Positions 45,111-48,870 of a stretch of DNA of 51,190 nucleotides are shown here, piece by piece (within the stretch, counting starts at the first letter, position 1; each line of letters begins with the position of its first letter). Where the stretch lies: positions 1 to 51,190 of the forward strand of contig JAPPNO010000082.1 of assembly GCA_028873845.1 (NCBI GenBank), in the 5' to 3' direction. This DNA comes from Gemmatimonadota bacterium (lineage in GTDB: Bacteria > Gemmatimonadota > Gemmatimonadetes > Longimicrobiales > Gaopeijiaceae). Below the pieces are notes generated by a model, which saw only the letters and a program-made list of their open reading frames with translations, was not told the origin of the DNA and made no database searches. The position numbers and the translations under genes were made by a program.

Positions 45111-45326
45111 CTACCACCGCCGCACCTTCCCTGTCACCTCGACCTCGACCCTCACGCCATCCATCGACCGCGGCACCCTGGACCGCAGCCGCGCATCGTC
45201 CCGTTCCAGGTAGACCTTCACGCACCCCTTCCCGTCCTTGAGGCCAATAGCGGTACCGCTCACCCCGTCGATCCCGATCACCTGCCGCGTGACCTTCCGG
45301 CACGCGTCCTCGATTCGGTCCCGCAT
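45111..45326 (-). CDS. Stand-alone homologue of the protease N-terminal domain
   Basis: A 71-residue protein placed 4 bp after the trypsin-like protease gene. Its sequence IGIDGVSGTAIGLKDGKGCVKVYL, followed by PRSMDGVRVEVEVTGKV, matches residues 57-106 of that protease (LGIPGVAGTAVGIGMNGLPVVKVYL, then PASLDGHEFVTEVTGRF). There is no signal peptide. A GGGAG ribosome site lies inside the end of the protease gene. The size, fold pattern and position suggest an inhibitor or folding helper like a detached propeptide, perhaps guarding the cytoplasm. That function is inferred. Confidence 0.72.
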   Translation of the reverse strand: MRDRIEDACRKVTRQVIGIDGVSGTAIGLKDGKGCVKVYLERDDARLRSRVPRSMDGVRVEVEVTGKVRRW

Positions 45327-45330
45327 GAGG

Positions 45331-46416
45331 TCAGCTCCCGTCGATCGTTACATCGAAGCGCTTGAGCACGACATCGATCGGGTTGGCCACCGTACTGCTC
45401 TGGCTCCCCGCGAAGAGAAGTCCCACCGGTTGGCGCGCGTTCGCGCCGCTGCCGCCGGATACGATCAGCGACCCGGAGTCGCCCGGCCCCGAGAATCCGC
45501 CCCCCGAAATCATGATCTGACCGACGAAGCGGGCGGTGCCGTCGCGGAAGCCGACGTTCAGGGTGGCGTTGATGCCGGTGATTTTGCCCGTGGTGTGGCC
45601 GGTGGTGCGGCCGTACTTCTGGACCTCCATGCCCAGGCGGGCTGCCGTGGTAGTGCTCCGGGGCGTGCCGTAGCCGTTCGACGGGGTGCTGTTGCCGAGC
45701 TGGTCGGTGCTCGTGGCCGCGATGGCCGCGTCGATGCGGTTGGAGGGGCAGGTGGGGAAGGGGGCGCAGAACCTGATGGGCTCGTAGTCGTGAAGCGTGC
45801 CGATCGCGTCATCGGGATTGACGCCGCCGTCCACCGTGCCGGGCTGGAGGATGCGGTCGCCCAGGTTGGCCGCGTTCCGATTGGCGTACACGTGATTGTT
45901 GCTCAGTGCGAAGACGTCTTCGCCCGACACGACCCGGGCGGCGATCGTGCCGGCCGTCACGTCGACCTGTCCGGTGGAAACGCCGATGGGAACCGGACGC
46001 GGGAAGGAGCGTCTGGGGTCGGTGTCGTCGCCGCTGCGGGCGGCTGCGGGACCTCCGCCGTCCTCCGCGGACGACGGCATGTCGCCCAGCGCGTGGAAGC
46101 GGCCGGTGACCTCGGTCACGAACTCGTGGCCGTCCAGGCTCGCGGGAAGTCCGAGAACGCGTGTATGCGCCAGGTAGACCTTGACGACAGGCAGGCCGTT
46201 CATCCCGATCCCCACGGCGGTGCCCGCCACCCCGGGAATGCCGAGCAGATCCTGGTTGTGGCTTTCCTGCAACGCCATGGCGGCCGCGAAGTCGCCGTGG
46301 GCAAAGCTGAGAAAACCGGGTGCGACCGCCGGATCACCGATGGGCCGGAAGAACAGGACATCCAGCACCACGGCGGCGGCCAGGGTCGCGAAGCGCACGC
46401 CATTCCTCTTGCTCAT
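45331..46416 (-). CDS. Trypsin-like serine protease with N-terminal prodomain-like module
   Basis: A 361-residue protein. Residues 8-27 form a hydrophobic leader. A compact alpha/beta module lies at 57-110, then a linker, then a trypsin-like domain with His175 in ALSNNHVYAN, Asp229 in RIDAAIAAT and Ser314 in GPGDSGSLIV. The family is common in Gemmatimonadota and related phyla, but its substrate is unknown. The N-terminal module is repeated as a separate small gene right downstream. ATG 46416 follows AGGAGA. Translation of the small gene is likely coupled. Confidence 0.82.
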   Translation of the reverse strand: MSKRNGVRFATLAAAVVLDVLFFRPIGDPAVAPGFLSFAHGDFAAAMALQESHNQDLLGIPGVAGTAVGIGMNGLPVVKVYLAHTRVLGLPASLDGHEFVTEVTGRFHALGDMPSSAEDGGGPAAARSGDDTDPRRSFPRPVPIGVSTGQVDVTAGTIAARVVSGEDVFALSNNHVYANRNAANLGDRILQPGTVDGGVNPDDAIGTLHDYEPIRFCAPFPTCPSNRIDAAIAATSTDQLGNSTPSNGYGTPRSTTTAARLGMEVQKYGRTTGHTTGKITGINATLNVGFRDGTARFVGQIMISGGGFSGPGDSGSLIVSGGSGANARQPVGLLFAGSQSSTVANPIDVVLKRFDVTIDGS

Positions 46417-46550: not shown

Positions 46551-47684
46551 TCACAGGTCCTCCGGGAAGAGTTCACCCTGGTGCTCACCCACCTCCGGGG
46601 GATATCGGCGAAGCGCCGCCCGGCGTCCGTTCCACCGAATCGGCAGCGGGACGTCGATGTAGTCCCCGATGCCGGGGTGATCGCTGCGGCGCAGCATGCC
46701 GGTGGCGATCGTTTGCGGATCCGCCAGCGCGGAGGCCACGGTGTGAATGGGGGCGGCCGGAACCCGGTGTCGCCGCAGAACCCCGATCAGGGCTTCCGTG
46801 GACAACCGCCGCGTGCATTCGCCGACGATGCCCGCGAGCCTCTCCCTGTTCGCCACCCGTGACGCGTTCGACCGGAAGTCCGGTTCCCCGGCCAGATCGA
46901 GGCCGAGGGCATCACACAGCCGCCGGAAGATCACATCGTTGCCGGCCGCGATCATGACGCTCCCGTCCGTGCAGGGAAAACCCTGGTACGGCGCGATCAT
47001 CGCGAGCCCCGTGCCCATGCGCCGAGGCAGGGTCTCCGTGTCGAGGTAGCTCGTCATGTGATAGGACATCCACGCGAGCGCGGTGTCCAGGAGGGAGGTG
47101 GTCACGTGGCAGCCGCGTCCGTCCCTCTCACGCTCCATCAGCGCCCCCATCACCGCGATCGCCGTCCACATCCCCGTCCCCAGATCGACGATCGACGTAC
47201 CGACGCGGGCCGGATCCCCCTCCGGGTCGCCCGTCACCGACATCAGCCCCGAACGCGCCTGCATGAGGGGATCGTATCCCGGGTCGCCGGCAAGGGGCCC
47301 CTCGGTTCCATGCGACGTGACCGACACGTAGATGACTCCGGGGTTGGCCGCCCGCACGGCCTCGTATCCGATCCCCAGCCGATCCGCCACCCCCAGCCGC
47401 AGCGCCTGCAGCACAACGTCCGAATCTGCCGCGAGTTCCAGGACCCTTGCGCGTCCCCGCTCCGTCTTGAGGTCCGCGATCACGCCGCGCTTGTTACGGT
47501 TCACCACCTGGAAGAGATGGCTGTTCCCTCCCACGAACGGGGGTCCCCACCTGCGGGCCGGATCGCCCCCGGGCGGTTCCACCTTGACCACGTCGGCACC
47601 CAGATCGCCCAGAATCTGCGTCGCGAACGGTCCCGCGAGGTTCTGCGTGAAGTCGAGGACCCGCAGCCCGGCGAGCGGCGCCAT
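46551..47684 (-). CDS. Class III CoA-transferase (CaiB/BaiF family)
   Basis: A 377-residue protein with family III features: MAPLAGLRVLDFTQNLAGPFATQILGDLGADVVKVEPPGGDPARRWGPPF at the start, NRNKRGVIADLK, the SGLMSVTG segment and the VDLGTGM block holding the candidate catalytic Asp, then HRVPAAPIHTVASALADPQTIA near the end. These enzymes move CoA between carboxylic acids such as formate/oxalate, carnitine, succinate/malate or mesaconate. The substrate cannot be told from the sequence. ATG 47684 begins where family homology begins. Confidence 0.9.
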   Translation of the reverse strand: MAPLAGLRVLDFTQNLAGPFATQILGDLGADVVKVEPPGGDPARRWGPPFVGGNSHLFQVVNRNKRGVIADLKTERGRARVLELAADSDVVLQALRLGVADRLGIGYEAVRAANPGVIYVSVTSHGTEGPLAGDPGYDPLMQARSGLMSVTGDPEGDPARVGTSIVDLGTGMWTAIAVMGALMERERDGRGCHVTTSLLDTALAWMSYHMTSYLDTETLPRRMGTGLAMIAPYQGFPCTDGSVMIAAGNDVIFRRLCDALGLDLAGEPDFRSNASRVANRERLAGIVGECTRRLSTEALIGVLRRHRVPAAPIHTVASALADPQTIATGMLRRSDHPGIGDYIDVPLPIRWNGRRAALRRYPPEVGEHQGELFPEDL

Positions 47685-47949
47685 GGCGCTGCCCCCGCCG
47701 GGATTCGCGGAGGAATCGGCAGCGGGGTCGGAAGCCAGCGACCGTGGCCCGGGGTGCGGAGCGGTCCCTTGCCATCGTGCGCCGCCGGGCTGCGTGGTCC
47801 CGGGTCCTTTCTGGAACACGGTGGATCGCTGTCCCTTGCTGGTGTATGAACGGTGACGCTTCTTTAGAGGCACGGCGACGCGACAAACGGTTGGCCCGCC
47901 GTCCACGCCGGACGGGAAACCAGCCGCCGGACGAAGCCGTGATAGAAAT

Positions 47950-48870
47950 ATGGAGACGATTCGAATTCCGAACAGCGCGACGTACTCCCCCGTCTCGCTC
48001 ACCGACCTGATGTTCACGGCGCCGCTGGCGACGCGCCTCCTTCTGGGAGCGACACTGCCTGGCCGCCTGGTGCAGGCTGCGGCCGCCGGTGCATACGCCG
48101 GCTGCGTGCTCAGCGACTGGGCCAGCCGGCGCGGCGTCCGCAAGATCGACTTCCTGGGCACCTACGGCGCCGACATCAAGCACATGGACGAAATGCCGCC
48201 GAGTCAGCGCGAGGAGGACGTCCAGCGCTACAGCGAAGAGCTGATGAGGATCCACGAGCCGGTCGTGCGCACCCGCGAGGTGATGGCGGCCGACATCAAC
48301 GAACGCCTCACCACGTACATTGCCGGCATTACCGGGCAGCGCGTGGAAACCAGCAGCTCCGTGCGCGAAATGACGCTGGCCCGGCTCATCATGCCCTTCG
48401 CATCGGGGAGTTGCGATGTCCTTTCGGGGGACATAGCCGTGTTTCGTAATGCCGGCATCTTCGAGGCGCACATCCTGGCCCACGAGTTCTGTCACCGGAA
48501 GGGCTATCTCAAGGAACTGGAGGCCCAGGCGCTCGCCTATCTGGCGCTGTCGCGCTCGAGGGATCCGCAGCTGCGCCAGTCGGCGCTGGCCGAACGCGTG
48601 TACCGCAACCTGCGCGTGCTGGACAACGACGATCCCGCGCGTTACGGCGAGCTGCTCGAGGACACTCCCCTCGACGGCCCGGTTCTCGACGATTTCCGCC
48701 GCCTGCGCCCACCCGACCAGCGCCCCAACCCCTTCGCGAACGCCATGAGGGAGCTGTACGACTCGCGCATGAAGCTGACGGGACAGAACGGCCTGTCCGA
48801 CTACGACCGCGGCTTCACCAACTTCCTGTATACGTACGAGAGTGCGGTGAAGGCCGGACGCGCCGCCTGA
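47950..48870 (+). CDS. DUF3810-like zinc metallopeptidase-type membrane protein
   Basis: A 306-residue protein with a hydrophobic segment near residues 25-53. It carries HEFCH at 178-182 (HExxH) in HILAHEFCHRKGYLKELEAQALAYLAL, with Glu191 as the probable third ligand. This block matches the DUF3810 pattern, in which it sits as LAHE...H-x-x-G...EAN-x-LAYL. The family is thought to be membrane metallopeptidases, with no known substrate. It is divergent from the CoA-transferase and convergent with the barrel gene, whose stop lies 3 bp from its own. Confidence 0.75.
   Translation: METIRIPNSATYSPVSLTDLMFTAPLATRLLLGATLPGRLVQAAAAGAYAGCVLSDWASRRGVRKIDFLGTYGADIKHMDEMPPSQREEDVQRYSEELMRIHEPVVRTREVMAADINERLTTYIAGITGQRVETSSSVREMTLARLIMPFASGSCDVLSGDIAVFRNAGIFEAHILAHEFCHRKGYLKELEAQALAYLALSRSRDPQLRQSALAERVYRNLRVLDNDDPARYGELLEDTPLDGPVLDDFRRLRPPDQRPNPFANAMRELYDSRMKLTGQNGLSDYDRGFTNFLYTYESAVKAGRAA

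Follow-up and report, generated by a model that had tools for sequence, protein, structure and literature searches.

A NAL1-like trypsin-fold serine protease and a free paralogue of its N-terminal module are conserved as a gene pair over many phyla

What is the role of a small protein that resembles the N-terminal module of a protease and is encoded directly beside it? The question is raised by a locus in a 51,190-nucleotide stretch of DNA from a Gemmatimonadota bacterium (GenBank assembly GCA_028873845.1, contig JAPPNO010000082.1, positions 1-51,190), the whole of which we refer to as the window. The original prediction, made from the sequence alone, described a trypsin-like protease with a hydrophobic leader and, 4 bp downstream, a gene for a 71-residue product lacking a signal peptide and matching residues 57-106 of the protease. 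This layout holds (Table 1): the ORF coordinates bear out the spacing, the leader is found at about residues 9-23, and the reading frame of the small ORF is closed by a stop codon eight codons before its ATG, leaving no room for a signal peptide. The match was essentially right as well, with protease residues 55-106 aligning to residues 14-67 of the small protein in a single BLASTP comparison (24 of 58 columns identical, or 41%, with 10 gap columns; E 5e-8). Profile searches, in one of which at most 15 candidates were scored per genome so that its counts are a lower bound, recovered both types of module at many loci, and the similarity in the window is therefore beyond chance. We call the two types the free module and, in the protease, the N-module. 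The free-module gene is evolving under purifying selection, with a dN/dS of 0.13-0.30 in seven pairs (the window against four relatives, and pairs among three of these). These values, together with conservation, rule out a spurious ORF in a GC-rich frame. The neighbouring ORF at 46551-48161 on the minus strand, which by eye we take to resemble a class III CoA-transferase of the CaiB type, ends 134 bp upstream of the protease gene.

Table 1. Features of the gene pair, in coordinates of the window
Feature	Position	Strand	Basis
NAL1-like trypsin-fold serine protease gene, 361 aa, ATG start	45331-46416	minus	translation, profile, model
Free module gene, 71 aa, ATG start, leaderless	45111-45326	minus	translation, BLASTP, dN/dS, model
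Gap of 4 bp, protease stop to free-module gene	45327-45330	minus	ORF coordinates
Hydrophobic N-terminal stretch of protease, residues 9-23, signal-anchor-like, acidic residue inside	46348-46392	minus	hydropathy
Protease N-module, residues 40-110, predicted equivalent of NAL1 N-terminal domain	46087-46299	minus	BLASTP, profiles, model
Catalytic domain, protease residues 139-361	45334-46002	minus	Foldseek and VIA matches to NAL1, S1E proteases
Catalytic His175 codon	45892-45894	minus	invariant in 67 rows
Catalytic Asp229 codon	45730-45732	minus	invariant in 67 rows
Catalytic Ser314 codon (GDSGS)	45475-45477	minus	invariant in 67 rows
Cys35 codon of free module, mark of free form	45222-45224	minus	97% of 141 free modules

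The protease and the free module are conserved as a unit over many phyla. A small gene usually located far from such proteases would, by the original prediction, have told against it, and that is not the pattern seen. Among 98 relatives, the small-protein query matched 45 genomes and the protease query 47; tallied by hand from both query results, 44 genomes have both, one only the small protein (G058), three only the protease (G057, G067 and G072) and 50 neither (Fisher). Two members of the window's genus, G010 and G011, have neither gene. Because the small-protein query can also match N-modules, this table was backed by reading the loci. Starting from the free module, the protease adjoins it on the same strand in 85 of 98 distinct loci, and for three of the 13 free-module genes without an adjacent protease the contig begins no more than 400 bp away (L032, L048 and L124); loci L003, L035, L042, L043, L050 and L052-L080 were dropped as repeats from this count and from the tree, leader and column counts. 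In a second survey, loci were chosen by the protease alone, as the best 80 by similarity of more than 569. Seven of these were set aside as the contig stops at the protease or no more than 211 bp beyond it (L162, L169, L178, L179, L188, L200 and L215). Of the 73 informative loci, which represent roughly twelve phyla (labels are shorthand for record titles), 61 have an adjacent free module encoded on the strand of the protease. It is present at 30 of 31 loci in Gemmatimonadota and 31 of 42 elsewhere, the latter including Planctomycetota, Nitrospirota, Fibrobacterota, KSB1, Zixibacteria, Desulfobacterota-type lineages and Gammaproteobacteria; partial matches were accepted as positive for L153 and L175, and a match 1.3 kb away for L209. 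The other 12 loci have no nearby free module (L171, L176, L177, L195, L197, L198, L199, L202, L211, L213, L218 and L219), which makes it dispensable there. When the complete genomes of five distant hosts were examined, every one had a free module close to a protease N-module. In Palauibacter-type genomes the order is swapped, with the free module upstream of the protease and the pair still together (swapped-order loci: L040, L088, L136, L137, L192-L194, L203 and L204). A phage or plasmid element was considered and rejected, the Oceanimonas free module having no match in plasmid or phage collections (one query each).

The original prediction described the small protein as a copy of the protease's own N-terminal module. 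The similarity stands, but calling it a copy misleads. A single branch separates 140 free modules from 161 N-modules in a tree of all 301 (SH-aLRT 96; built by a quick method from 71 columns, rooted at the midpoint and with near-copies retained), so the free module is an old paralogue, and a recent duplication of the N-module is rejected. The tree provides good but not final evidence that a single old duplication was followed by joint inheritance. The two types have core residues in common, column by column, and the free proteins mostly end within a few residues of where the protease enters its linker. Their clearest difference is Cys35, found in 97% of 141 free modules in both leader states; at this column cysteine is not among the four commonest residues in 160 N-modules. 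A near-invariant residue that is atypical of N-modules could indicate that the free module has a job of its own, for example via Cys35, with the protease neighbourhood being regulatory or historical only, and some free modules are indeed distant from any protease (for example L039, L046 and L112). However, pairing that is kept across many phyla and through a swap of gene order is hard to attribute to history alone, and we consider an independent job very improbable.

The protease is most closely related in structure to plant NARROW LEAF 1 (NAL1). Its triad of His175, Asp229 and Ser314 is intact. Against the Pfam family Nal1_C (PF25819) it scores 23.7 bits, under the curated cut-off of 26.1, and we therefore term it NAL1-like rather than file it as a Nal1_C member; 38 of 39 aligned relatives match Nal1_C at E<=0.1, and the top PDB match of a profile of these 39 proteins is rice NAL1 (E 7e-9, over the catalytic domain). 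An AlphaFold2 model of the protease (mean pLDDT 89, pTM 0.86; 92-98 by ten-residue blocks over N-module residues 41-110) has NAL1 as its top Foldseek match (E 3.5e-17), and VIA places model residues 40-361 onto NAL1 residues 91-446 (8pmm_A; Z 26.0, rmsd 3.4, 284 aligned). A single superposition spans both domains, the N-domain being placed relative to the catalytic domain as in NAL1, so that in the predicted structure the N-module corresponds to the N-terminal domain of NAL1. The next structural relatives found by VIA are bacterial proteases such as 2sfa (Z 20.9), over the catalytic domain only. The Pfam tables of the 39 proteases hold no match to PF02983, the alpha-lytic pro-domain, at E<=0.1. 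Alongside the shared catalytic-domain profile match and two-domain arrangement there is a difference: unlike plant NAL1, the bacterial relatives carry export signals. We know of no free-module partner for NAL1. One study reports that NAL1 acts as a trypsin-like serine protease and that its activity in maize includes degrading a TOPLESS-like corepressor (PMC12915138). By the constructs solved, NAL1 keeps its N-domain, and the domain thus need not inhibit in cis.

What kind of domain is the free module? Its model (pLDDT 87, pTM 0.73) has an alpha-beta-beta-alpha-beta fold. No Pfam family fits it, whether the query is the window protein or a set of 21 free modules at E<=1; PF02983, I9 (the subtilisin propeptide-type inhibitor) and other inhibitor families are all absent from the tables of these 21 at that threshold, and the window's small protein has no Pfam match to BsuPI or PEBP. 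PF02983 exceeded its cut-off in none of 61 genomes and in none of 14 control genomes. Because no Pfam model fits the family, the free-module genes are likely filed as hypothetical. Foldseek returned zero matches at E<=0.001. VIA ranked a designed binder first (Z 7.0); the other top matches include 4pro_C, the Pro region of alpha-lytic protease (residues 87-166; Z 6.8, rmsd 2.8, 68 aligned), NAL1 residues 93-173 (8pn1_A; Z 6.3, rmsd 2.2, 64 aligned), 8hau_A (6.3), 3pro_D (6.3) and 2pro_C (5.8). These matches thus take in each of the three listed Pro entries of alpha-lytic protease as well as chains of the NAL1 N-domain, the latter reaching Z 6.3; the absence of a family from the VIA lists is not read as exclusion. 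A notable feature is that the top natural matches share a protease superfamily with the product of the neighbouring gene. With Z-scores of 6-7, below 8 and low enough for a widespread arrangement to account for them, kinship in fold between the free module, the alpha-lytic Pro region and the NAL1 N-domain is suggestive only.

Nearly all free modules are without a client domain, and the exceptions bear on function. One free-module lipoprotein ends in a BsuPI domain (L048:2-709, genome G023; E 1.9e-24) and two free modules end in PEBP domains (L117:3848-4867 minus and L118:4467-5270; E 3e-40 and 3e-44). BsuPI is an intracellular proteinase inhibitor family, and the PEBP family includes a carboxypeptidase inhibitor. 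These fusions, at one and two loci, hint at inhibition by the free module. A fusion of another kind lies in the window's own genome (L002:1495-2958 minus, on G000:C44), where a module with two cysteines forms the C-terminal part of a 488-aa six-bladed propeller lipoprotein; similar fusions occur at L038 and L051, and in the flanking DNA examined none of the three has a protease nearby. They hint at a second use of the module, in docking. The free module could, by extension, be a docking tag or adaptor that recruits clients or is itself a substrate, with the C-terminal module marking propeller lipoproteins for the same protease. We judge this decidedly unlikely, as these fusions, in the window's own genome and two relatives, have been seen only in the window's genus and the typical free module carries no client.

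We give about an even chance to the proposal that the locus is a two-gene system in which the free module is a dedicated, trans-acting, pro-domain-like regulator of the protease. The first gene would produce an exported or membrane-anchored NAL1-type protease that keeps an N-terminal domain resembling a pro-domain, and the second a free paralogue of that domain. We infer binding, a binding site, and inhibition or chaperoning: the free module would bind its cognate protease at or beside the surface used by the cis N-domain, and would hold it inactive and/or aid its folding until it reaches the right location. What is established is that the genes are paired, that the pairing is old, that the triad is intact, that the two modules share a predicted fold and that two leader states exist. 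Counted in favour of a regulator are the pairing and its survival of a gene-order swap, the old split between module types, the fold matches, the fusions to inhibitor families, the end of the free proteins near the linker position and the precedent of SpeB-Spi. Counted against it are the Z-scores below 8, the empty Foldseek search, the designed binder in first place and the lack of a sequence match to alpha-lytic pro-domains or inhibitor families in the Pfam searches above, as well as the propeller fusion, which suggests docking instead, and the C-terminal fusions, which argue against a free C terminus entering the active site. The 12 of 73 protease loci that do without the free gene, and the N-domain that NAL1 keeps, are further points against it. 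The resemblance to propeptides that are also found as separate inhibitors, which the original prediction pointed out, gains some support from the inhibitor-family fusions and from a fold comparison with the alpha-lytic Pro region among its top matches, at Z below 8.

Known systems offer both parallels and differences. The Pro region of alpha-lytic protease is carried in cis, has two domains, works in trans and inhibits. It is needed for folding, which it speeds, and the junction lies across the active site (PMC2829044). S1E types are the closest solved bacterial catalytic fold after NAL1 (Z about 20), a likeness to alpha-lytic protease; unlike the situation there, one module in the window stays on the enzyme and another is a separate gene, with no PF02983 sequence match. 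In the SpeB-Spi system of Streptococcus pyogenes, as here, an exported protease has an N-terminal pro-type domain and a small adjacent gene encodes an analogue of that domain, and in the window's clade the small protein is likewise leaderless. Two papers (PMC2873492 and PMC3462683) describe Spi as an analogue of the propeptide, with a presumed role in inhibiting SpeB that becomes active too early, in the cytoplasm. Unlike SpeB, a C10 cysteine protease, the window enzyme is a trypsin-fold serine protease (GDSGS) with an unrelated pro-type domain, and the window-type pair spans about a dozen phyla, includes lipoprotein versions and is known from sequence and models. The same papers present Bfp/Bfi and Btp/Bti of Bacteroides as pairs of a predicted lipoprotein protease and a small gene up- or downstream. 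These pairs and staphopain-staphostatin share with the window a protease and a small inhibitor-like gene side by side, but the enzymes are cysteine proteases and the small proteins are staphostatin-like and dissimilar to their own propeptide. Since SpeB-Spi and the Bacteroides systems involve cysteine proteases, the window pair is an analogue and not a member. A further reading, which we hold to be doubtful, is a split pro-region: one pro-type domain would sit permanently on the protease and the other, a separate gene, would serve as foldase and inhibitor in trans, working in the cytoplasm or, in other clades, as a lipoprotein. On this reading, plant NAL1 would have retained its cis pro-domain and would lack a trans partner.

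Where the two proteins reside bears on each of these models. Leader classes were assigned by a simple hydropathy and lipobox script that misplaced some rows, and the 157 free-module rows and 135 scored pairs are non-independent (L141-L148 and others repeat earlier genomes). By this scoring the free module is a lipoprotein in many clades and leaderless in the window's genus. The commonest of the 135 pairs, and the window's type, joins a leaderless free module to a signal-anchor-like protease (62 pairs); in 30 both partners resemble lipoproteins, and in 17 a leaderless free module accompanies a lipoprotein protease. Having no export signal, the free module of the window's genus would act on newly made protease in the cytoplasm, whereas in clades where both proteins are lipoprotein-like it would act at the cell envelope. 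The original prediction that the small protein could protect the cytoplasm can hold for leaderless clades, including the window's genus; given the lipoprotein free modules of many other clades, it is a possible role only in some. Partners in the window's genus may sit in different compartments, which we count against a regulator. In proteases paired with leaderless free modules an acidic residue (LD, AD or AE) often lies mid-leader, an unusual feature in a signal peptide; examples are the window leader (46348-46392) and its homologues in L006-L031 and L121-L130. A second cysteine a few residues before Cys35 is present in 50 of the 61 free modules, of 157, that have a lipobox or signal-like stretch and in 15 of 96 leaderless ones, some of which are likely misclassified exported proteins (Fisher; rows not independent), and a disulfide may form in the exported free modules.

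The free module could alternatively be a constitutive subunit or activator, the protease assembling through its N-domains and free modules into a hetero-oligomer whose oligomeric state, or the opening of whose active site, the free module sets, in place of inhibition. The crystal and cryo-EM entries of NAL1 contain several chains, and their titles speak of open and close; the core residues common to both module types would suit such an assembly, and genes that overlap closely or are coupled point to similar amounts of the two products. However, a leaderless free module encoded next to a signal-bearing protease, as in 79 of 135 pairs, would need another export route to join a stable envelope complex, and the module is fused to families with known protease inhibitors. 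We consider a constitutive subunit unlikely.

The original prediction held that a protease with a matching stand-alone module in one operon seemed undescribed for this family, and searches of open-access papers turned up no description. Bacterial NAL1-like proteases with a dedicated old partner form a large and apparently undescribed group. If the free module is a regulator, the principle of the propeptide-analogue inhibitor, as in SpeB-Spi, would extend to trypsin-fold serine proteases and to both cytoplasm and envelope. It also becomes testable whether NAL1, a leaf-growth protein important in agronomy, owes its N-terminal domain to a protease pro-domain.

Two single loci are recorded here for their architecture. 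At L181:4878-5669, for a Dehalococcoidia protease of this family no N-module was found upstream in any frame, while a free module lies downstream; the gene may be genuinely split or simply damaged. At L107:5157-5999 minus, the frame of a free-module lipoprotein continues from a protein kinase fragment (Pkinase, E 1e-8), perhaps through a rearrangement.
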